A DNA stretch of 44,049 nucleotides from Candidatus Aquidulcis sp. (GTDB lineage Bacteria > Chloroflexota > Anaerolineae > UBA4142). Of the stretch, positions 3,627 through 44,049 are shown piece by piece. Under the pieces are notes generated by a model. The model had not been told where the DNA came from, did not search any database, and saw only the letters and a program-made list of their open reading frames with translations. The stretch is taken from the NCBI GenBank assembly GCA_020723345.1, contig DYJA01000055.1:1-44049 (forward strand). The letters are read 5' to 3'. Positions within the stretch are counted from its first letter, which is position 1; each line of letters begins with the position of its first letter. Made by a program: the position numbers and the translations under genes.

Positions 3627-6451
3627 AACTCGTTCTCCTCGATTCGCACGCGCTCATCCATCGCGCGTACCACGCGATTGACGCGCGCTTGACCAGCCCC
3701 AGCGGCGAGCCGACGAACGCGACGTACGGTTTTACTTCGACGCTGATCAAAGTGTTGAACGACGAAAAACCCGATTACGTCGCCGCCGCGTTCGACGTGG
3801 GGCGCACGTTTCGCGACGACTTGTACGCGGAGTACAAAGCGCAGCGCCCCGCGCTTTCCGACGATTTGCGCGTGCAGTTGAAACGCTCGCGCGAAGTGGT
3901 ACAAGCGCTCAACATTCCCGCGTTCGGCGTCGAAGGATTCGAGGCGGACGATTTGCTCGGCACGCTCGCGCGGCAGGCGAGCGAACGCGGCGTTGACGTC
4001 GTGATCGTCACCGGCGACACTGACACATTTCAACTGATCGGTCCGAACGTGCGCGTGCTGACTTTTTCGCGGCAGTTCGGCGAGACCGTTTTGTACGACC
4101 CAGCCGCCATCAAAACGCGCTACGGACTGGAACCGCGCCAACTGATTGATTTCAAATCGCTCAAGGGCGATCCATCCGACAACATTCCCGGCGTCGCGGG
4201 CATCGGTGAAAAGACCGCGACGAAATTATTGCAACAGTACGGCAGCGTCGAAAACGTCTACGCGCATCTCGATGAAATCGACGCGCGCACGCGCGAGAAA
4301 TTGCGCGCGGGCAAGGAGCAAGCCGAGCAGGGGAAAAAACTCGTCACGATTGTCACCGCCGCGCCGATTCAACTCGATCTCGACGCGTGCCGCGTCGCGC
4401 AAATTGACCGCGAACGCGTCAGCGCGCTTTTCCGCGAACTCGGTTTCCGCGCGAATTTGTTGGATCGTTTGTCGGGCGCGACGACGACTGTATCACAACC
4501 CGACTTGTTTGCGGACGCGAAAGGGCGCGAAAGCGACGCGAAAGAAGACGCGCAAGGAAGCGAAAATTACCGGATCGTCGACAGCGACGCCGCGCTCGAG
4601 CAACTCGTCGCGCGACTGAAATCGACAAAAGCGTTCGTCGTCGACGTGGAAACGACAGGTACGGATGAAATGCGCGCGGAGTTGGTCGGCATTGCGATTG
4701 GCGTAGGGAACGGTGAAGCGTATTATATTCCTGTTGCGACCGCCGACCGCCGACTGCCGACCGCTGGTCAACTCGCCTTTGACACGAAACCTTCATCCTT
4801 CATCCCTCATCCCTCATCCTTCGATCCGCATCACGTTCTCTCAAAACTCAAACCGGTTTTCCAAGATGTCTCCATCGCCAAATACGCGCACAACGCCAAG
4901 TACGATTTGACGGTGCTGGCGGAAGCGGGCGTCGAAACGCGCGGACTCGCGTTCGACACGATGATCGCTGCGAACCTGGTTGAGCCGAGTGGATCGCTGG
5001 GTTTGAAGAAACTCGTCGCGGAAAAATTCGGCGTCGAGATGACCGAGATCGCGACGCTGATCGGCAAGGGCAAAAATCAGATTTCGATGGCGGATGTGCC
5101 GGTCGAGCAAGCCGCGCCGTACGCGTGCGCCGATGCGGATTACACGTACCGTCTCGTCGAATTGTACCAGCCAATCATCGCGAACGCGGCGCGCGGCGTC
5201 GAAAGACTTTTCCGCGAAGTCGAAATGCCGCTCGTGCCGGTGTTGATGGAAATGGAACGCACGGGTGTCTTGCTCGATTTGGATTTTCTCGCGCACATGT
5301 CGCGCGATCTTGCCGCGCGCCTGCAGGAACTTGAAAAGCAAATCACCGTGCACGTCGGGATGCCGATCAACATCGCGTCGCCGCAGCAACTTGGGGACGC
5401 GCTCTTCAACCGGCTGAAACTGCCGACGGCTGGGTTACCCAAGACGAAGACCGGACAAATCTCGACCGCGGCGGACGTTTTGGAATCGTTGCGCGACGCG
5501 CACCCGGTCATCGCGCTGATTCTGGAACACCGCGAACTGTCGAAACTGAAAGGAACGTACGTCGACGCGCTGCCCGCGCTCGTCCTGCCGCGTACCGGAC
5601 GCGTGCATACCGACTACAATCAAACCGGCGTTGTGACCGGACGCGTCTCGTCGTCGAATCCGAATCTGCAAAACATCCCGATTCGCACCGATCTGGGGCG
5701 GCAAGTCCGCCGCGCGTTCATCGCGCCGCGCGGCAGCCAACTGATCAGCGCGGATTACTCGCAGGTCGAACTCCGCATCCTCGCGCACATCGCGCGCGAT
5801 CCGGGCTTGCTCGACGCGTTCGCGCGCGGCGAAGACATTCACGCGGCGACGGCGGCGCGGCTATTCAAAGTCCCGCTCGAGCAAGTCACATCGCAAATGC
5901 GGCAACTCGGCAAGACGATCAACTTTGGCATCGCGTACGGCATCACCGATTACGGCGTCGCTGCGCGCACCGAACTTTCGCAAACCGAAGCGCGCGAGTT
6001 GATCGACAATTATTTCGCGCAGTACGCCGGAGTCAAAGCGTACATCGATCAGACCAAACGCGAGGCGCGCGAGCGCGGTTACGTGCAGACGCTCCTGGGT
6101 CGGCGGCGTTATTTTCCAGAGTTGCAGCGCGACACGCGGAACATCGGCGCGCGCAACGCCGCCGAACGCGAAGCGATCAATCATCCGATTCAAGGCAGCG
6201 CGGCGGACATCATCAAGATCGCGATGGTGCGCCTGCGCAATCAACTGCACGCGCGTAATCTGCGCGCGCGGATGACGCTCCAAGTCCACGACGAACTTGT
6301 CCTCGAATGTCCGGACGACGAAGTGCGCGTCGTCGCGCCGCTCGTCCGCGAGACGATGGAGCAGGCGTATCCACTCGATTCAAAATTGAAAGTGGATGTC
6401 GCGGTCGGGCAAAATTGGGATGAAATGAATTCAATGACAAATGACAAATGA
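3623..6451 (+). CDS. polA: DNA polymerase I
   Basis: 942 residues, close to the usual PolA length. The 5' nuclease domain (about 1-290) opens with L-L-D-S-H-A-L-I-H-R-A. The 3'-5' exonuclease domain keeps D-V-E-T-T-G near 340, so proofreading looks intact. The polymerase domain has motif A D-Y-S-Q-V-E-L-R (Asp711), motif B with K-T-I-N-F-G-I-A-Y-G, and motif C V-H-D-E (888-891). Start is GTG 3623, overlapping the TGA of the STAND gene as GTGA, implying translational coupling. Two oddities: a low-complexity in-frame insert in the exonuclease domain (about residues 372-402), and a C-terminal tail N-S-M-T-N-D-K beyond the usual W-D-E end that is encoded by the repeat continuing into the next gene. 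Confidence 0.97.
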   Translation: MKLVLLDSHALIHRAYHAIDARLTSPSGEPTNATYGFTSTLIKVLNDEKPDYVAAAFDVGRTFRDDLYAEYKAQRPALSDDLRVQLKRSREVVQALNIPAFGVEGFEADDLLGTLARQASERGVDVVIVTGDTDTFQLIGPNVRVLTFSRQFGETVLYDPAAIKTRYGLEPRQLIDFKSLKGDPSDNIPGVAGIGEKTATKLLQQYGSVENVYAHLDEIDARTREKLRAGKEQAEQGKKLVTIVTAAPIQLDLDACRVAQIDRERVSALFRELGFRANLLDRLSGATTTVSQPDLFADAKGRESDAKEDAQGSENYRIVDSDAALEQLVARLKSTKAFVVDVETTGTDEMRAELVGIAIGVGNGEAYYIPVATADRRLPTAGQLAFDTKPSSFIPHPSSFDPHHVLSKLKPVFQDVSIAKYAHNAKYDLTVLAEAGVETRGLAFDTMIAANLVEPSGSLGLKKLVAEKFGVEMTEIATLIGKGKNQISMADVPVEQAAPYACADADYTYRLVELYQPIIANAARGVERLFREVEMPLVPVLMEMERTGVLLDLDFLAHMSRDLAARLQELEKQITVHVGMPINIASPQQLGDALFNRLKLPTAGLPKTKTGQISTAADVLESLRDAHPVIALILEHRELSKLKGTYVDALPALVLPRTGRVHTDYNQTGVVTGRVSSSNPNLQNIPIRTDLGRQVRRAFIAPRGSQLISADYSQVELRILAHIARDPGLLDAFARGEDIHAATAARLFKVPLEQVTSQMRQLGKTINFGIAYGITDYGVAARTELSQTEARELIDNYFAQYAGVKAYIDQTKREARERGYVQTLLGRRRYFPELQRDTRNIGARNAAEREAINHPIQGSAADIIKIAMVRLRNQLHARNLRARMTLQVHDELVLECPDDEVRVVAPLVRETMEQAYPLDSKLKVDVAVGQNWDEMNSMTNDK
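4738..4828 (+). repeat. Low-complexity repeat inserted in frame in polA
   Basis: Two repeat types sit side by side: an ACCGCCGACC-GCCGACT stretch and a CTTCATCC/CCTCATCC stretch. The first recurs in the GT39-like gene at 27243-27270. The encoded segment (T-A-D-R-R-L-P-T ... S-S-F-I-P-H-P-S-S-F) has no counterpart in typical PolA and falls between exonuclease motifs. The frame is preserved. Confidence 0.65.
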
Positions 6452-11031: not shown

Positions 11032-13823
11032 AGCCGGCATGGAATCGCCGCGACGCGTTGGCGATCTTGTTTCTGGTCGCGTGGCAGTGCGTTTATTTCT
11101 TTCCGGTGACGCTCGCGCAAGCTGTGTGGTTTGGCAGCGACACGGTTCGCACGTATTTTCCGCTGGGGACGGAACTCGCGCGCGCGCTGCATGAAGGGCG
11201 TTTGCCACTCTGGACGACCGGAATGTACGGCGGCTTTCCATTGCTCGCCGACGCGCAAGTGGGCGCGCTGTATCCGATCAACTTGATTCTCTATGCGGTG
11301 TTGCCGCCGCATTTTGCGCTGTCGTACACTGTTTTATTTCATCTCGCGTTTGCGGCAGTCGGGGCGTACTTGTGGGTGCGCGCGTCCGGGTTTCGCGTGG
11401 CAAGCGCGCTTCTGGCGGGCATCGTTTTTTCGTTCAGCGGTTTCATGCTTTCGCGTTTGCCGCACGTGACAATCCTCGTCACGAGTTCGTGGTTGCCCTG
11501 GCTCTTTTTTTTGCAAGATCAATTTCAACGCGCGCAGACGCCGCTTGTCATTTCGAGCGGAGGGAGAAATCTCGGTGACGCCTCGCGAGATTTCTCGCAG
11601 AAATCGCTCGAAATGACAAGGACCAAGCGCGCCGCGCTCTGGTTCGCGCTGCTCGCGCTGGCGTTGGGAATCCAAGTTCTTTGCGGCTTTCCCCAAGTCG
11701 CGTTTATGAACTTGCTCGCGGTCGGACTGGTTGGATTTTTTGGAAGATTGTTGTGGGATTCGAATCCGTTTCTAGGGGCGACTTTCGCTGAACGACTCAA
11801 GTCGTTACTACGAGCGATTGGTTGGAGCGCGCTGCCGATCCTTCTCGGCGCGGGCATCGCGGCGGCGCAGATCGTACCGACCGTCGAATTGGTTGGCTAT
11901 TCCGTGCGCGGCAGCGCGTCCAGTTTTCGATTCGTCACGAGTTATTCGCTGCCGCCCGAAATGCTCGCACAATTCGTTGCGCCATTCATTCACGGCGAGC
12001 CATCGGAAGGCGCGAACAACGAGTATTGGGCGTACCTGGGTCTCGCGCCGTTTCTGTTGGCGCTCCTCGCGGTCTGGTTGCGCCGCGACGCGCGCACGAT
12101 TTTTTTTGCGGTCTTTGCGCTCGCCGCGTTATCGCTCGCGCTGGGCGATCTCAATCCGGTCTATCGCCTGATCTATCAATTGCCGGGTCTTAGTTTCTTT
12201 CGCGTTCCCGCACGCTATCTCTTGTTATTCGTTTTTGCCGCGACGTTTCTCACCGCGACCGGTTTTGAAGAATTGTCGAATCGCTTGTCCGATGCTCGCG
12301 TCAAGTGCGCATTCGTGTGGGCTTGCGCGTTTGGCGGGGCGATTGTCGTCGTAATCTGGCTCGCGCAAACGCAATGGCTCGAATTTTGGATGGCGGTTTG
12401 GCAATATTTGCCGATGGGATTGCTCGCGGCGAGTGTCGGCGTCCTGGGTCTCGCGTGGATGCGCCGCGCGAGTCGCGCGCTGTTTCAAACGATTGTTCTG
12501 GGGCTAACGCTTTGCGATCTCGCATGCACTGCGCCGCTTTTTGTGATCACGCTGGGACGGCTGGATACTCCGGCGTACGCGGCAAGCGCGCCGCGTTCCT
12601 TGTCCGTGATCGAGACGCGACCTGGGGACGGACGCGTTTTTACCGATATGTACATCGATTCGTCCGTCGCCGCGATCCGCGCGGGGCTGTACCCGAACGC
12701 CGCGTTGCTGTACGGCAAAGAGAGCGCGCAGGCGTACTCGTCGCTCGCGTTCGCGCGCCAATCGGCGTATCTTGCCGACCTCACGCCGAGCATGTTGAAT
12801 TTGCTGAACGTGCGGTACTTTGCCGTGCCGCTGGAGCCGCGTCCAGAAACGAAATCGGTCGCGCCGCTCGATACGCTTGGGCTGGATGTGTTGAACAACG
12901 AAGAAGTTTTTCCGCCGGTGCCCGCGACCGGCGTCGAAATTATTTCCTTCACCGAGCGCGCCGAAAATCTCGCGAATGGTACGCCGGTCGGAGAACTCGT
13001 ACTGCGGCGACGCGACGGTCGAATCGAAACATTTCCGCTACGCGTCGGAATCGAAACGGCGGATTGGGATTACGCGCGCAACAAGCCGCAACATGCGCGC
13101 GCGCCGGTCGCGCACACGTTCCGAGGTTTCTGGCGCGCGTTCGGACGCGAGTTTGAAGGGAACACGTACGCCGCGCGTTTCAGTTTCGCGCCCGGCGAAA
13201 TCGTCGGCGTCAACGTGCGCGCGTTGCGTCCCGAAGCGCGCTTGACGATTGAGCGAATTTCTCTGTACAATGCGGACAATCAACCAACCGCGCTCGCCAA
13301 GTTGGTGCATCGGAACGATTTTGCGTTGGCGTACTTGAGCGACACGGTTGCTATTTGGGAAAACAAAAACGCGCTGCCGCGCGCGTTCATCGCGCACGCG
13401 GCGACGGTCGCGAACGACGATGCCGCGTTCGCGCGCTTGCGCGATCCAAGTTTCCAACCCGAACGCGAAGTGTTGTTGAGCGAAGGCGGTGAGTTGCGCG
13501 ATGTTGCGCCCGCGCGCGATTCGGTCGAGATCGCGACGTACAAATCCGGACGCGTCGCGATCAAAGCGACGACGGATCAGCCGGGCTATCTCGTGCTTGC
13601 CGATTCGTGGTACCCCGGCTGGAACGCGTTGGTGGATGGACGCTCCGCGCCGATCCATCGCGCCGATGTTTTGTTCCGCGCCGTGCGAATCGAACCGGGA
13701 ACGCACGACATCGAGTTCGAATATCGTCCGCTGTCGTTCGCCGTCGGCGCGACGATTAGCGCGATCAGTTTGTTGATCGCTTTGGGAATTCCCGTTTTCT
13801 ATCTTCGATACGGAAAAAAATAA
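11028..13823 (+). CDS. YfhO-like polytopic membrane protein (copy 2)
   Basis: 931 residues, paralogue of the gene at 6448 with the same order of helices and the same C-terminal beta domain (E-I-A-T-Y-K-S-G, then D-S-W-Y-P-G-W, then a last helix). The early T-Y-F-P-L-G-T-E-L-A-R-A segment and L-L-A-D-A-Q-V-G-A-L-Y-P are characteristic. The start is ATG 11028 inside the glycosyltransferase stop (ATGA); the longer frame to 10632 merely overlaps that gene. A role in glycosylation of a surface polymer is inferred, as for copy 1. A 73-nt palindromic repeat (11546-11618) is carried in frame near residue 175 at a place where copy 1 carries a different repeat, suggesting a tolerant loop. Confidence 0.8.
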   Translation: MKPAWNRRDALAILFLVAWQCVYFFPVTLAQAVWFGSDTVRTYFPLGTELARALHEGRLPLWTTGMYGGFPLLADAQVGALYPINLILYAVLPPHFALSYTVLFHLAFAAVGAYLWVRASGFRVASALLAGIVFSFSGFMLSRLPHVTILVTSSWLPWLFFLQDQFQRAQTPLVISSGGRNLGDASRDFSQKSLEMTRTKRAALWFALLALALGIQVLCGFPQVAFMNLLAVGLVGFFGRLLWDSNPFLGATFAERLKSLLRAIGWSALPILLGAGIAAAQIVPTVELVGYSVRGSASSFRFVTSYSLPPEMLAQFVAPFIHGEPSEGANNEYWAYLGLAPFLLALLAVWLRRDARTIFFAVFALAALSLALGDLNPVYRLIYQLPGLSFFRVPARYLLLFVFAATFLTATGFEELSNRLSDARVKCAFVWACAFGGAIVVVIWLAQTQWLEFWMAVWQYLPMGLLAASVGVLGLAWMRRASRALFQTIVLGLTLCDLACTAPLFVITLGRLDTPAYAASAPRSLSVIETRPGDGRVFTDMYIDSSVAAIRAGLYPNAALLYGKESAQAYSSLAFARQSAYLADLTPSMLNLLNVRYFAVPLEPRPETKSVAPLDTLGLDVLNNEEVFPPVPATGVEIISFTERAENLANGTPVGELVLRRRDGRIETFPLRVGIETADWDYARNKPQHARAPVAHTFRGFWRAFGREFEGNTYAARFSFAPGEIVGVNVRALRPEARLTIERISLYNADNQPTALAKLVHRNDFALAYLSDTVAIWENKNALPRAFIAHAATVANDDAAFARLRDPSFQPEREVLLSEGGELRDVAPARDSVEIATYKSGRVAIKATTDQPGYLVLADSWYPGWNALVDGRSAPIHRADVLFRAVRIEPGTHDIEFEYRPLSFAVGATISAISLLIALGIPVFYLRYGKK
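11546..11618. repeat. Palindromic repeat, TGTCATTTCGAGCG family, inside yfhO copy 2
   Basis: Inverted repeat TGTCATTTCGAGCG...CGCTCGAAATGACA with inner GAGAAATCTC and GAGATTTCTC arms. The same family occurs intergenically at 15423-15530 and 26626-26706. Here it is translated in frame. Confidence 0.8.
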
Positions 13824-36656: not shown

Positions 36657-39026
36657 TCAGTTGTCCCACTCTTTCGTTTGCGATTCGTTCGCGCGCCACT
36701 GTGCCCGCGTCTGCTCCACCCACGCGAATTTTTTCTGTAACGCTTTGGTGTACAACCGCTTCCAATCATAGCCCGCGTAATCGCCCCACGATTTATAGAC
36801 GCGCGGGTCGATGTAATTCTTCAGCGACGTTCCCAAATTGTAATCGCGCGTCCGCTTTGCCAAATCCAATTGCAGCGCCGCGCGCTCGACGCGTTCGGCG
36901 TAATTCTGCTGCGCGATCTCCGGCGCGCGGCGCGCTTGTTCGAGCGCGGCTTCCACTTTTGCCAGACGTTCTTCGTAGCGTTTCGGCGCGTGGGCAAGCG
37001 CGTCTTGCGCGCGTTTGAGCGCGGCTTGCGCTTGCGCGATATTTTTCGCGGCATTTCGCGTTTTTTCGCGCTTTTGCTTCGTCGCCGCGTCCAACGCTTT
37101 GCGCGCGGAAGCGATGCGCGCTTTGAGTCGTTTGAGTTTCGCGTCGTTCCCCTTTTGGGTTTCCGCGAACGCTTTGCGCGCCACGCGCAGGCGTTTGTTG
37201 AACGCCGCCAACGCCTTTTTCGCTTTGGGCGGTTTTTGCTTTTCGAGTTTGGCGAGCGCGTCCTGTTTTTTCTTCAACGCGGTTTGCGCGGCGGCTTCGA
37301 GCGGTTTCTGCGCGGCAAGCGCGTGATCGAGTGTGGCTTGGCGCGTCTGGATCGTCTCATCGAGTTTCGGCAGATCGGTTTGCGCGGCGCGCGCGCGTTC
37401 CAGCGCGTCCTCGCGCGCCTTGAGTTGCGCGGCGAGTTTTTGCGGATCCGGTGGCGCGGCGCGCAGTTTCTCCAGCGCTTTTTCGCGCGGCGCGATTTGC
37501 GCTTGGAGTTTAGTCACGTCCGGCGGCGCGGCGCGCAGTCGCTGCACTTGTACTTCGCGCTTTGCCAGATTTTCCTCCCAGTTTTTCGGCGGCGTGCGTT
37601 TGTGATTGCAGACGATTGCCGCGTCGAGGTTCGCGAGTTTCGCGACGTACTCTTTCTGATAATTCGGCGCGTCGCTCGCGACGTTGCCATCGCGTTCGAG
37701 GTACGACCGGACCGCGTGCGTCGCGTGGTACGTGCGGAAGACTTTCGCAGTCAAGCCGGGCACGATACTGCTCAAGAATTTGTTGACGTGCGTTGAATCG
37801 ATCTTGTCGAAAATCTGATCGCCGGTTTGTTTGCCGTGCGTGAGGTCTTGCAAGTTGCGCGCGAGAATCAGTTCGTCGTGATTGAGCGGCAACGATTTCT
37901 GCCACGCGACGCTATCTTTGCCGAGAAAATCGAATTCAATGTTGTCGCGCCCGATTCGCACGTGTTCGACGCGCAGCGTGGACGCGCCGACGGTATCCGC
38001 TTCGTCCTCGTCCTTTTCGTCGCCGACGCGCATCGCGAGCCGGTCGATCAAATAGCACACCGTCGCGAGTTGGCGCGTCTTCATTTCGTCGGCGCGGATT
38101 TTTTCCTCGCGCGTGGCGAGCGTTTCGCTCTTTTTCTGGAGCGCAGCGAGTTGCTCTTCGACTTTTTTGCGTGTCTCCGCGTCGCCCACTTCGCTCGCCT
38201 GCAAAAGTTTTTCTTCGAGTGACTTTCTCTTTGCGTTCACGTCGGCGCGGTGTTTCTCCAGTTCCGCGCGCGCGCGCGCGTCTTCGTAACCCATCCGCTT
38301 GGCGATTTCGGCGCGCACTTTGTCGACGCTCGTTTGCAATTTCGCCGCTTTGAGATATTTTTCCTGATCGCGTTCTTGCCGCAGATGCGACGTTTCCGCG
38401 AGCCAAATGTATTTGCGCTTTTTGGCGAGATTGTCCCACCACGTCGCGATCCACATCGAATCGTGCTCGTGGACGATTTCTTTCCAATTGCCCGGCGGCA
38501 CGGGCGCGTCTTCGTCGAGATTGAGCGTCACGTCTTCCGGCTTGACGCGATCTTTCCACTTGCCGCGCAGCGGATGCTGCCCGCGCCCCATCAAAATTCC
38601 CGGTGGCTCGACCAGGTACGCGCCGATTTCGGTTTCCTTGCCGTCAATGAGCGCGGCACCGTATTTCGCTTTCAGTTCGTCGCGTTCTTTTTTGCGCGCC
38701 TCGGCGCGCGCTTTCTTTTCTTCCGGCGAAAGGTTCGCAGTCTTTTCGCGTTCGGCAATCACGTGCAGTTCGGCGAAATCAATGTTGGCGAGTGTGATGT
38801 CGGACAAGCGCGCGTCGAGTTTCGCGATGAAATCGTTCAAGAAGTTTTTCTGGAACACCGGATCGAGGACGTAGGGCGTGTCTTTTTTTCTTGCCCACGC
38901 CATCAACATTTCTTCCTGCTCCGGCGTCAGTTTGGTTTTTTCGTTTTTGATGCGGACGACGAGTCCGCGATAATCGTACGGCGGCGGGAACGCGACTCCA
39001 TTGTGCCGCAGGGTTTGCCACTTCAA
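36657..39026 (-). CDS. Eukaryote-type DNA topoisomerase IB
   Basis: 789 residues. The N-terminal DNA-binding core is of the eukaryotic type: W-Q-T-L-R-H-N-G-V near the start, G-R-G-Q-H-P-L-R-G-K, and P-P-G-N-W-K-E near 180. The catalytic core has R-V-G-D-E-K-D-E-D-E-A-D-T-V-G, the K-V-F-R-T-Y arginine, V-C-N-H-K-R-T-P-P with the active histidine, and the nucleophile in L-G-T-S-L-K-N-Y-I-D-P-R near the C-terminus. These match human TOP1 Arg488, Arg590, His632 and Tyr723 contexts. Between them is an unusually long Lys/Ala-rich coiled-coil linker (about 500-740). It relaxes supercoils by 3'-phosphotyrosine nicking. TTG 39026 is chosen because homology starts there and GAGGAG is 10 nt upstream; the frame runs to 39065 in repeat sequence. 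Confidence 0.9.
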   Translation of the reverse strand: MKWQTLRHNGVAFPPPYDYRGLVVRIKNEKTKLTPEQEEMLMAWARKKDTPYVLDPVFQKNFLNDFIAKLDARLSDITLANIDFAELHVIAEREKTANLSPEEKKARAEARKKERDELKAKYGAALIDGKETEIGAYLVEPPGILMGRGQHPLRGKWKDRVKPEDVTLNLDEDAPVPPGNWKEIVHEHDSMWIATWWDNLAKKRKYIWLAETSHLRQERDQEKYLKAAKLQTSVDKVRAEIAKRMGYEDARARAELEKHRADVNAKRKSLEEKLLQASEVGDAETRKKVEEQLAALQKKSETLATREEKIRADEMKTRQLATVCYLIDRLAMRVGDEKDEDEADTVGASTLRVEHVRIGRDNIEFDFLGKDSVAWQKSLPLNHDELILARNLQDLTHGKQTGDQIFDKIDSTHVNKFLSSIVPGLTAKVFRTYHATHAVRSYLERDGNVASDAPNYQKEYVAKLANLDAAIVCNHKRTPPKNWEENLAKREVQVQRLRAAPPDVTKLQAQIAPREKALEKLRAAPPDPQKLAAQLKAREDALERARAAQTDLPKLDETIQTRQATLDHALAAQKPLEAAAQTALKKKQDALAKLEKQKPPKAKKALAAFNKRLRVARKAFAETQKGNDAKLKRLKARIASARKALDAATKQKREKTRNAAKNIAQAQAALKRAQDALAHAPKRYEERLAKVEAALEQARRAPEIAQQNYAERVERAALQLDLAKRTRDYNLGTSLKNYIDPRVYKSWGDYAGYDWKRLYTKALQKKFAWVEQTRAQWRANESQTKEWDN

Positions 39027-39053
39027 AGGTTTCTTGCTCCTCAAGTCAATTAG

Positions 39054-39103
39054 GCAATCAGTCAATCAGGAACCAGTTGCCTGGTTGACCGATTGACTGA
39101 TTG
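39054..39103. repeat. Inverted repeat in the topoisomerase leader
   Basis: CAATCAGTCAATC and GATTGACTGATTG face each other around ACCAGTTGCCTGGT. It lies at the 5' end of the topoisomerase transcript predicted from the promoter at 39113. Confidence 0.65.
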
Positions 39104-39148: not shown

Positions 39149-41290
39149 TCAAATACTCGTCTCGACCAACTGTACGCATTGCTCGCGCAGAATCGTTTTC
39201 TGTTCGATGATCTGCCGTACTTGCTCCGCGACGCGTTCAATTTCTGCGCGATCATTGCTGATCGGCAGAACGATGTCGAGCAGACGATTGCCAATCGTTG
39301 ATAACGTTGCTTGCGTAAATGTTTTCACCGCGATTTGCCGTTGCGCGATGTTGGAGTTGAGCAGGTAGAACAAATAGAATGGGCTGAGTTGGTCGGGTTT
39401 CAAGACGCGGATTTTCTTCAAATGGCTTTGGATGATTATTCGGACGTCCAGGTGCGTCACCATTGCCGTTCTGCCAATCAGAAACGTGCCGTCGTTGACG
39501 AATAGAATATCATGCTCACGCACGTCCTGCAAATTTCGATATTGTTCGTACACCTCTTCTGCGACCGCCTTGACCGGATCCATCTTGATTTCCCAATTCA
39601 CAATATCAGTTGTTCGCACGAAGGGCACATCGCCCGTGCCGTAAAATTGTGAGCCGATTTCGTTGCCGCGTCGAATTTCGATGACACCAGCCCGTATCAA
39701 ATCGCCAATCGACATGAGCCGGTACTTGCCGCTTTGCTCAAGTTGCTTCAATTCCTCTCTGAGTTCTGGGTTGTAAAACTCGGGAATGAAGATGTGGTCG
39801 TCGATCTCCGTCTGGTCAACGACGAAACCGAGGTGATTGTTGACGATAGGCGTACCTGTGTTGGCGCGCGCAAAATTCCGCGCGATGTCCGGCGTGTCGT
39901 CGTCAATGATTTTGTTGCCGCTTGAATCCAAGACCGGCGCGCCGTCGGGCTTGATCTGAAAAATTTCTTTGCCGTTCTTGTTGTGTCCAATCGTTTTGGC
40001 AATCGCCATAAAGACGCGCCGGTTGGACGCCGGTAATTTCTGAAGGAACACGACGCTCGTTTTGGTATGCGTGCTCGGCTGAAAAGTTTCCGGCGGTAGA
40101 CTGACGATTGCCAAGACCGATGCGTTTTGGCGCACGTACTCCCAGATGTACCGATCCGATGGATTGCCAAAAACGCCTTCGGGCAGAACAATGCCCGCGC
40201 GCCCACCGGGTTTCAGCAATTGCAGGCAGCGCTCGATGAAGAGAACTTGCGGCGGCTGCTTGTCTAACAATTCGGTTGTCTTGAGCCAGACATCATTCTT
40301 TTCGATCCTTCGACTGCGCTCAGGACAAGTCCAGTGATGCCCCAGTTCGAATTGGCGTAACAGTTCTTTACCGATGACTGGAATTTTTGCGCCGAATGGC
40401 GGATTCGTCAGAATCAAATCGAACGAACCGAGCGGTGCGGCGCGTTGCGTTTCCAATCTCCACGCGCGTGGCTGTTCCAAACTGTTCTCACAAAAAAGAT
40501 GATAGTCGCTTTCGCCGATAAGCGAGAGATAAATTCTCGCCAAACGCGAAAGAAACGCGTCTTTGTCTATGCCAACAATCGTGTAATCGCTGGCGCGGGT
40601 GTGCGCCAAGTGCCGCGCGATGTACGCCAGAAAGCCGCCGCTGCCACACGCCGGATCAATAATGCGTTCGCCGCTCGTCGGATTGAGCATTTCGATCATC
40701 ATCTGCACAACATTGCGCGGCGTAAAAAACTGGCCCTCGCCGCCACGGAACGTCGTGCCGATGAGTTCCTCGAACGCGTCCGCAATGATGTCGCGGTCGG
40801 CATTCACTAGAGTATAGTCTTGAAGTTTCGAGACGACATACGCGAGATCTGCTCCATCAATCTCGATCACTTCGGCTGGATCGAAAATGTCGGTGCGTTT
40901 TTGTTTGACGCGGTGGAAGAGTTTTTGGATCCGCCGCGCCAGGTCGTTGGGACTTTCGTTGGGACGATTGGCGAATTCCACCAGTTCGTCGGCGCGGATT
41001 TCCTGTTCGTCTACAATTTTGCAGAATAGTAACCGCAGCATCGTTTGCGCGATGACTTCGTCGCGGGTGATGCCGGTGACGTTACCGGCAAAGTAATCGC
41101 GGAGATCGCGCAGAATGGCTTTGAGGTTGTGGAGGGGCTGAAGGTCACGTTTGTAGATTAGCGTGGCAGGAAAACCGAGTTGACGCACGCGGTATTCTCG
41201 CGTTCTTGACTCGGCAACTTTCTTCACTCGCGCCTTCGGACGCACCGGATATGTTTTTTTCTTGGGTCGAGAAATCTTTTTTACTGGCAT
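39149..41290 (-). CDS. N6-adenine DNA methylase fused to a specificity domain (Type I-like M-S)
   Basis: 713 residues. The HsdM-like part (about 60-470) has G-Q-F-F-T-P-R, the AdoMet loop D-P-A-C-G-S-G-G-F near 215 and the catalytic N-P-P-F-G near 295. The C-terminal 220 residues resemble a single target-recognition half of HsdS (F-V-R-T-T-D-I and Q-A-T-L-S-T-I-G segments). It should methylate adenine at a specific site and protect host DNA. ATG 41290 overlaps the nuclease stop by 10 nt. A repeat-derived peptide C-P-E-R-S-R-R-I-E is inserted in frame between N-P-P-F-G and the following strand (near 318-327). No nuclease domain of its own is seen, so it is not a IIG enzyme. Confidence 0.9.
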   Translation of the reverse strand: MPVKKISRPKKKTYPVRPKARVKKVAESRTREYRVRQLGFPATLIYKRDLQPLHNLKAILRDLRDYFAGNVTGITRDEVIAQTMLRLLFCKIVDEQEIRADELVEFANRPNESPNDLARRIQKLFHRVKQKRTDIFDPAEVIEIDGADLAYVVSKLQDYTLVNADRDIIADAFEELIGTTFRGGEGQFFTPRNVVQMMIEMLNPTSGERIIDPACGSGGFLAYIARHLAHTRASDYTIVGIDKDAFLSRLARIYLSLIGESDYHLFCENSLEQPRAWRLETQRAAPLGSFDLILTNPPFGAKIPVIGKELLRQFELGHHWTCPERSRRIEKNDVWLKTTELLDKQPPQVLFIERCLQLLKPGGRAGIVLPEGVFGNPSDRYIWEYVRQNASVLAIVSLPPETFQPSTHTKTSVVFLQKLPASNRRVFMAIAKTIGHNKNGKEIFQIKPDGAPVLDSSGNKIIDDDTPDIARNFARANTGTPIVNNHLGFVVDQTEIDDHIFIPEFYNPELREELKQLEQSGKYRLMSIGDLIRAGVIEIRRGNEIGSQFYGTGDVPFVRTTDIVNWEIKMDPVKAVAEEVYEQYRNLQDVREHDILFVNDGTFLIGRTAMVTHLDVRIIIQSHLKKIRVLKPDQLSPFYLFYLLNSNIAQRQIAVKTFTQATLSTIGNRLLDIVLPISNDRAEIERVAEQVRQIIEQKTILREQCVQLVETSI
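40304..40332. repeat. TCCTTCGACTGCGCTCAGGAC repeat inside the methylase gene
   Basis: A copy of the well-known TCCTTCGACTG...CTCAGGAC palindromic element, read as C-P-E-R-S-R-R-I-E in the methylase frame. Nested copies of its halves occur at 7780-7806 and 15479-15512. Confidence 0.75.
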
Positions 41291-43494: not shown

Positions 43495-43522
43495 GGTTTC
43501 CTCCCCTGCTGGCTCCGACGGC

Positions 43523-43552
43523 ATTGTAACACGAGAGGGGTTAAGACGGCAA
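43523..43552 (-). promoter_or_regulatory. Sigma70-type promoter of the acidic-tail protein
   Basis: Minus strand TTGCCG, 18-nt spacer, TACAAT; transcription start near 43516. This falls inside the longer reading frame from 43524, which argues for the GTG 43494 start. Confidence 0.55.
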
Positions 43553-43605
43553 AAGAGGGGATAAGAGGGCAGGAGAGGGCAAAGAAGGCGGAGAGGGTAG
43601 AGAAA
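43553..43605 (+). repeat. Purine-rich AGAGGG repeat
   Basis: Tandem AGAGGGG, AGAGGGC, AGAAGGCGG and AGAGGGT words, the same lexicon as the left arm of the inverted repeat at 28623. Lies between the acidic-tail gene promoter and the small-peptide terminator. No gene is seen in 43553-43648. Confidence 0.5.
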
Positions 43606-43648: not shown

Positions 43649-43683
43649 AAAAAACCATCAGACATCTATGTGTCTGATGGTTT
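43649..43683 (-). terminator. Intrinsic terminator of the small-peptide transcript
   Basis: Perfect 13-bp stem AAACCATCAGACA / TGTCTGATGGTTT with a 6-nt loop, running into T6 on the minus strand. It lies 35 nt past the stop of the 34-residue peptide gene and shows that this short region is transcribed from the right. Confidence 0.85.
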
Positions 43684-43718
43684 ATACGTAAACCGCAGTT
43701 TCGAGGACGGAGAATCCG

Positions 43719-43823
43719 TTAACCTCCTCCGCCAACATCTGAAGCAAGCACGGCGGCAACCTGCGTCAGCAAGATGGCTACAGCCATGAGCAACGAGAGC
43801 AGGCACCACAACCATTTGCGCAT
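43719..43823 (-). CDS. 34-residue secreted peptide precursor (SDVGGGG end)
   Basis: 34 residues: basic start M-R-K-W-L-W, a hydrophobic core of about 17 residues, then V-L-A | S-D-V-G-G-G-G. A signal-peptidase site after V-L-A would release the heptapeptide SDVGGGG. AGAGGAG lies 9 nt upstream of ATG 43823, and a strong terminator follows the stop by 35 nt, so this is a real, self-contained small gene. Short hydrophobic precursors ending Asp-x-x-x-Val-Gly-Gly serve as pheromones (SHP) in streptococci; any such role is only an analogy. A longer in-frame GTG at 43940 gives a hydrophilic extension without signal character. The C-terminal codons repeat those of the 9-residue frame at 43941. Confidence 0.65.
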   Translation of the reverse strand: MRKWLWCLLSLLMAVAILLTQVAAVLASDVGGGG

Positions 43824-43849
43824 TGATGCATCTCCTCTTTGGTCATTCA

Positions 43850-43874
43850 GAGCCAAGCACTGTTTCTTTGGCTC
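43850..43874 (-). other. Hairpin between the two peptide frames
   Basis: GAGCCAA / TTGGCTC, 7-bp perfect stem with an 11-nt loop, 27 nt before the start of the 34-residue peptide. It could be an attenuator or leader structure regulated by translation of the upstream 9-residue frame. Confidence 0.45.
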
Positions 43875-43940
43875 ATTGTAACTAGTTTGCCGGTTGATAA
43901 GGAACTGACTGTGGATTGCGATTCTCTTGGTGTGTGGCAC

Positions 43941-43970
43941 CTAACCGCTGCCGCCAACATCAATTTTCAT
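43941..43970 (-). CDS. 9-residue peptide frame MKIDVGGSG
   Basis: ATG 43970 to TAG, encoding MKIDVGGSG. AAAGGAGGT lies 8 nt upstream, among the best ribosome sites in the window, and a two-codon ATG-GGA-TGA overlaps its start. Its last codons GAT-GTT-GGC-GGC-AGC-GGT nearly repeat the end of the 34-residue peptide gene (GAT-GTT-GGC-GGA-GGA-GGT), which suggests a decayed or minimal duplicate, or a leader peptide. The upstream promoter is not identified, and 43976-44049 shows no gene. Confidence 0.45.
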   Translation of the reverse strand: MKIDVGGSG

Positions 43971-44049
43971 CCCATTCACCTCCTTTCAGTGTGTCGAGTT
44001 CTCTCGGAAACTCCGGAGACTCAGAAATCCTTGGTTAACTGAATAATCA

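Follow-up and report, generated by a model that had tools for sequence, protein, structure and literature searches.

Both peptides of the enterococcal pCF10 system, cCF10 and iCF10, are exported. They bind the same domain of PrgX with opposite effects, as described in the accessible part of the source (PMC5552905). For the streptococcal SHP/Rgg system, the available portion of the published work reports that SHP2/3 read DI[I/L]IIVGG and that residues 15-23 of SHP3, when expressed inside cells, sufficed for reporter induction (PMC3150281). As far as the excerpted text covers them, the FxSxx-COOH modules are coupled to conflict systems. They encode a small precursor that changes fast and ends in a better conserved peptide, proposed to be a toxin or a signal; the other components are a zincin-like peptidase, an AP-ATPase and, in many cases, a radical-SAM enzyme (PMC7159879).

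The window, i.e., the whole stretch of 44,049 nucleotides analyzed here, contains near one end two genes for small peptides that share an ending. Our main conclusion is that these peptides belong together as a matched pair, and that pairs of this kind recur. The conserved pair lies beside an immunity-linked protein family, which suggests an unrecognized peptide-signaling circuit. Genes of 8-20 codons escape ordinary annotation, and no description of such a twin cassette was found in the accessible parts of the open-license literature, which was also searched by tail strings. The protein family, designated A1, provides a testable partner for the peptides, and two uncharacterized parts, the A1 domain and the cassette, thereby gain a common context. 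If the peptides control A1, conflict systems would gain a peptide-signaling layer with an internal reference copy.

The window cassette and the insertion sequence at its edge

Both tiny genes were read from the sequence of the minus strand, with a strong terminator after them (Table 1). Gene 1 consists of the codons ATG AAA ATT GAT GTT GGC GGC AGC GGT TAG. The precursor encoded by gene 2 has a hydropathy maximum of 2.98 over 13 residues and a likely signal-peptidase site, judged by eye, between AVLA and SDVGGGG. The original prediction of two peptide genes with a common ending holds for the ORFs themselves, each of which is preceded by a Shine-Dalgarno sequence, while the hairpin that it placed between them is not confirmed: the spacer shows no fold beyond chance (z = +0.52; 135 of 200 shuffles at least as stable). 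The terminator that it reported is confirmed at -18.7 kcal/mol (z = -6.0; 0 of 200 shuffles equally stable), and its duplicated end codons correspond to a 20-nt repeat with copies that are 85% identical and 222 bases apart. In-frame DVGG[GS]G followed by a stop codon occurs at just these two sites in the whole genome, compared to none for a reversed-pattern control. The codons of the two tails, DVGGSG in gene 1 and DVGGGG in gene 2, comprise four identical, one synonymous and one non-synonymous, and the apparent coding evidence for the window pair taken alone is weaker than that for the pooled cassettes described below.

Table 1. Features of the window cassette and its edge, and peptide pairs of the cassettes at the other A1 loci
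Feature	Position	Strand	Basis
Tiny gene 1, leaderless 9-residue peptide MKIDVGGSG	43970-43941, stop included	-	ORF and Shine-Dalgarno read directly
Shine-Dalgarno of gene 1, AAAGGAGGTG, 5' of ATG	43977..43986	-	sequence
Tiny gene 2, 34-residue signal-peptide-like precursor MRKWLWCLLSLLMAVAILLTQVAAVLASDVGGGG	43823-43719, stop included	-	ORF
Shine-Dalgarno of gene 2, AGAGGAG, 5' of ATG	43832..43838	-	sequence
Spacer between the two genes, 117 nt	43824..43940	-	sequence
Intrinsic terminator closing the cassette, 13-pair stem and T run	43683-43652	-	sequence, folding
Insertion sequence end, 16-bp terminal repeat GAGTTCTCTCGGAAAC, cut by contig end	43996..44049	-	repeat and duplication matching
Target duplication left by the insertion sequence, GACACA	43990..43995	-	same 6 bases end the flank on C120
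L099, MKRDGAIGGG with ...VLADGAIGG			
L100, MKDGSIGG with ...ALADGSIAGG			
L101, MKDGSIGG with ...VLADGSIAGG			
L102, MKGGNGAIGG with ...NGGNGAIGGGSPFM (contains NGGNGAIGGG; tail runs on as SPFM)			
L103, MKIKSQPKRGGIIGG with ...NGGIIAGG			
L104, MKLSSRDGIIGGS with ...VLADGIVGGG			
L105, MTVERDHHNQGMIGGGG with MLTRGDIIATIAGLIGGG			
L106, MNCRGNGVIGG with ...TLGNGAIGAG			
L107, MKSDGSVGG with ...LEDGSIGGG			
L108, MKTDGSVGG with ...LGDGSIGGG			

Three other contig ends carry the final 54 bases of the window, with 53 or 54 of them identical. This shared sequence was suspected first to be a repeated 5' leader, because all four copies sit right before a Shine-Dalgarno sequence. That reading was replaced when a second end type with the same 16-bp terminal repeat was recognized at four further contig ends. 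The repeat has 8 copies in this genome and none in the 395 other class genomes sampled. The eight ends pair one to one via duplications of 6, 5, 5 and 4 bases, while the remaining pairings among the 16 combinations (4 by 4) match by 0 or 1 base. The terminal repeats and matching 4-6-bp duplications of these eight ends identify an insertion sequence (IS), the interior of which is absent from the assembly stretches examined. Given this pairing, the IS ends at position 43996 and the flank past it is contig C120. The linkage of the window to A1 is based on the same pairing, in which four ends of each type were compared and the duplication here has 6 bp. The original prediction had missed this edge and the continuation of the locus on another contig.

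The four IS copies of the window type (window 43976-44049, L002:1-80, L003:1-82 and L004:1475-1553) have the same orientation, and at all of them an [AG]GGAGG Shine-Dalgarno sequence lies 4-5 nt past the 4-6-bp target duplication. The IS thus behaves as if ribosome-binding sites were its target, of which no obvious report was found in the accessible portions of the literature.

Beyond the IS, the A1 gene on C120 (L074:64-1029, minus strand) runs in the same direction as the cassette and ends just before the duplication. A promoter with 12 of 12 consensus bases is found about 280 nt upstream of the start of its product, P0001, so that before the insertion the promoter would have been followed by P0001, MKIDVGGSG, the precursor and the terminator. 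In this strain the locus is split by the IS, and the window cassette may be silent or IS-driven because the IS separates it from the P0001 promoter. As for what follows position 44049, a question raised with the original prediction, an A1-domain gene lies across the IS on C120, and no Rgg-type receptor was recognized in P0001 or its three L074 neighbors.

Two further features of the window should be noted. A purine-rich GGAGAGGG-type stretch at 43521-43604 is a dispersed repeat on many contigs and accounts for most of 49 matches. On the minus strand, a topoisomerase IB with three eukaryotic-type Pfam domains adjoins an N6 methylase fused to a specificity domain (36657-39065 and 39149-41290).

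The A1 family and its twin cassettes

P0001 has 321 residues and two predicted membrane helices. No Pfam, NCBIfam or PADLOC family was found above cut-off and no adaptor domain was recognized; a weak match to SLATT_1 (E = 0.08) was far under its cut-off and was rejected. With P0001 as the seed, a protein search was positive in 5 of 395 other class genomes. The C-terminal domain of about 230 residues common to P0001 and its relatives was named A1 here. An A1 profile recovered four of these five genomes and nothing new among 376 class genomes, and identified nine loci in eight genomes among 52 of the family where A1 is common. Besides the window, this gave 10 loci in nine genomes (G045, G054, G111, G345, G377, G401, G404, G405 and G406, the last with two loci), all of them chosen with no regard to peptides. 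In the window's own lineage, 13 same-family and six same-order genomes were sampled and no A1 protein was found in them, which makes the window copy a lone outlier there.

The alignment of the A1 domain (11 rows) has 19 invariant columns, W-x-I-x-R-P-T among them, while nothing above cut-off was found for the domain in Pfam or NCBIfam and no PDB sequence matched. Adaptors were recognized in four of the 10 other A1 proteins, i.e., EAD7 in those of L099, L100 and L101 (E = 1e-16 to 1e-17) and bDLD1 in that of L102 (E = 3e-14), and in none of the remaining six. Several A1 proteins are without a predicted membrane helix, so no single sensing topology fits all. At L103 (1919-13998), the A1 gene and its cassette are flanked by defense genes, with a TmtA-like gene on one side and genes for an Hma-like helicase and an adenine methylase on the other. 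The settings of the A1 loci fit the conflict systems described in the available parts of PMC7159879 and PMC8195603.

The original prediction depended on conservation of the peptides in relatives, and a twin cassette was found beside the A1 gene at all 10 other loci, or 11 of 11 with the window. Each consists of a leaderless peptide of 8-20 residues and a short hydrophobic precursor (18-40 residues) that carries an equal, locus-specific tail (Table 1). The window conforms to this make-up, with a terminator following, but departs from the other cassettes in its DVGG tail, in place of DGxIGG, and in the length of its spacer. In 10 of 12 cassettes the two genes are 2-6 nt apart, and the Shine-Dalgarno sequence of gene 2 must fall where gene 1 has its Gly-Gly codons; the two others are the window, with 117 nt, and L104, with 23 nt. 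At most of the ten loci, folding revealed a clear stem after the cassette. Nine loci have the cassette upstream of A1, and it lies downstream at L105 and in the window; at L107 and L108 another gene intervenes, which at L108 is a KAP NTPase gene adjoining A1. The 18-residue precursor of L105 has a merely weak hydrophobic stretch. L105 also contains a second twin cassette (MKYLQNFEQPKCKTGLIGGG and MLKQIALRSIIGISIFLLVAPIIPSVTGLIGGGG, 12343-12516), 5.6 kb away and near a TIR_2 fragment, with no adjoining A1 gene, while at L104 the A1 gene is followed by a short peptide on its own, MKQMRDGIIGGS (3924-3962), a third copy of the L104 tail. Of ten precursors from the other loci, none was assigned to a Pfam family or matched NCBIfam above cut-off; a single CbiN match (E = 0.008) was under cut-off.

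It was also proposed that small ORFs ending in DVGG be sought in related genomes, and the outcome does not favor that ending. Of 396 class genomes, 42 contained the pattern DVGG[GS/R]G followed by a stop codon (or TGG), with 48 matches in all, and among the loci fetched (30, then 14 more) a signal-peptide-like ORF was found at the window's own locus alone. Thus, the conserved feature is the architecture and not the literal DVGG ending. The 34-residue precursor, used as a protein query in 20 genomes of the order, yielded itself and weak chance matches (E = 0.06 to 1). Searches of plasmids, phages, viral contigs, Rfam and PDB sequences gave no match. A cassette pattern applied to 80 genomes was too loose and was left out of the counts, and the one candidate from genome_contigs, in Paludibacteraceae (L087), was dropped as another frame of an unrelated gene.

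A scan whose ending rule was written after the first cassettes were known, and widened once, found no cassette at 111 other loci of the same genomes (273,361 bases, with some overlap) and none in a smaller control set of 189,671 bases. The same scan recovers the window and nine of the 10 loci and misses L102, whose pair was spotted by eye. The mean tail alignment score was 10.0 within loci vs. 6.84 between them, and pairing as good was reached in 0 of 100,000 permutations of 12 pairs and in 7 of 100,000 permutations of nine pairs from which near relatives and the second L105 cassette were left out. Among 72 aligned tail codons, 27 were identical, 39 synonymous and 6 non-synonymous. Since the Gly-Gly end was the search key, glycine codons were excluded in a hand recount of the same rows, which gave 11, 16 and 6, respectively. 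Differences between orthologous precursors at codon positions 1, 2 and 3 numbered 6, 3 and 18 for G406 vs. G405, and 8, 5 and 21 for G345 vs. G377. Together, the A1 linkage, tail matching and synonymous drift point to translated peptides, and the tails vary between loci yet match within each, as would be expected of a self/non-self code.

Possible roles of the paired tails

On these comparisons, the cassette and its linkage to A1 appear well supported. We consider it moderately probable that the two ORFs form one functional cassette that accompanies A1 and is pheromone-like, with exported and cytosolic copies of the tail controlling the A1 protein. As our best guess at such a mechanism, the gene 2 precursor would be exported and cut, which would free a tail made of its last 6-8 residues or so (SDVGGGG in the window, DGSIAGG or DGAIGG at other loci), while the leaderless gene 1 peptide with its equal tail would remain cytosolic. 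The two copies may then compete for the A1 protein or act on it in turn: the copy kept in the cytosol would define self, or a resting state, and information on neighbors would come from the exported copy, through sensing at the membrane or after re-import. On this view, a conflict or cell-death response would use the A1 protein, fitted in some relatives with an EAD7 or Death-like adaptor, as its receptor or effector. What we infer from this arrangement is that the precursor is exported and cleaved, that the peptides bind A1, and which way control runs. The A1 protein is the sole partner present at all loci, and no importer or processing enzyme was identified among the neighbor genes scanned. 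That one tail would occur both outside and inside the cell suggests a signal with an internal counterpart, both acting on a single receptor. We offer more tentatively, as a possible but doubtful extension, that immunity or cell death is controlled by a tail encoded twice, in that the cell compares its internal copy with those of its neighbors (kin or density sensing) and so gates the A1 effector.

The size of gene 2, the basic N-terminus and strong hydrophobic stretch of its product, the conflict-type partners and the one cassette near a TIR fragment would also suit a small membrane toxin, either type I toxin-like or an abortive-infection peptide, with the leaderless twin or A1 as its antidote. 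This is unlikely, as the conserved part is the tail and not the membrane stretch, and the tail is matched in the leaderless twin. A little less likely again is that the ORFs are regulatory leader peptides that control a neighbor gene by attenuation or nascent-chain arrest and have no role of their own as peptides, to which the strong Shine-Dalgarno sequences, the tight coupling of the ORFs in 10 of 12 cassettes and the stem after the cassette could all be attributed. The leader-regulated peptide named in the original prediction is nevertheless weakened because the cassette follows the A1 gene in the window and at L105 and because the tail amino acids are kept while their codons change synonymously; moreover, a signal peptide is superfluous for an attenuator, and the window has no inter-ORF hairpin beyond chance. 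The other reading offered there, a pheromone-like peptide, stays the best one, given the twin cassettes at the 10 other loci.

Nearly all tails end in GG, or in GG plus one or two small residues, and ubiquitin-like (Ubl) ligases occur in some conflict systems, as the accessible text of PMC7159879 describes. Hence the Gly-Gly ends might serve to tag the A1 protein, as substrates of ubiquitin-like conjugation or of some other C-terminal modification. We give this little credence: several tails extend past GG (GGS, GGSG, GGGSPFM) or read GAG, and E1, E2 and JAB genes were not recognized among the scanned cassette neighbors. Just as improbable is that these are chance ORFs and that GATGTTGGCGG, present in both, arose by a small duplication of DNA and has no coding meaning. 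For the window pair alone a recent duplication is possible because its tails share most codons, and among 13 family relatives no homologue was found at the DNA level, but the same architecture recurs at all 10 other A1 loci vs. none in 273 kb of control DNA.

Comparison with peptide-signaling and conflict systems

A pheromone-like pair that acts on A1 would resemble several described systems in part. By its sequence, the window's 34-residue precursor would pass for an SHP-type one, i.e., a short hydrophobic precursor with a separate C-terminal tail. In the streptococcal SHP/Rgg systems of the RRNPP type, the precursor is likewise very short and hydrophobic, with its C-terminal residues as the signal, and the active intracellular SHP3 fragment, as given in the available portion of its source, resembles the leaderless cytosolic copy proposed here. 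Those systems differ from the A1 loci in that the partner here is an A1 protein, a separate leaderless gene bears the same tail, and the tails are glycine-rich in contrast to the hydrophobic SHP core. An Rgg/RRNPP receptor with a helix-turn-helix and TPR-like repeats was absent from P0001 and from the four window and three L074 neighbors scanned, and no leaderless twin is described for SHP in the accessible part of PMC3150281. Thus, neither membership in SHP/Rgg nor kinship with the streptococcal SHP peptides mentioned in the original prediction is supported.

The pCF10 system, as its source describes it in the part available, resembles the arrangement proposed here in having two short peptides for one receptor. 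It differs in that one twin here is without a signal peptide and the pair lies in one cassette, and no PrgX-like protein was recognized. With the FxSxx-COOH modules the A1 loci share a precursor with a conserved C-terminal peptide and a tie to conflict systems, while a twin peptide is not described for those modules in the accessible text of PMC7159879. FxSxx, RxD or acidic C-terminal motifs are not in the tails reported here (DVGGxG, DGxIGG and similar), and no zincin-like peptidase, radical-SAM enzyme or AP-ATPase was recognized among the neighbor genes scanned for them. Finally, although the A1 domain has no family match and the A1 protein of the window no recognized adaptor, which sets them apart from the EAD/Death-like conflict systems, the A1 proteins of L099, L100 and L101 resemble those systems through EAD7, and that of L102 through bDLD1.
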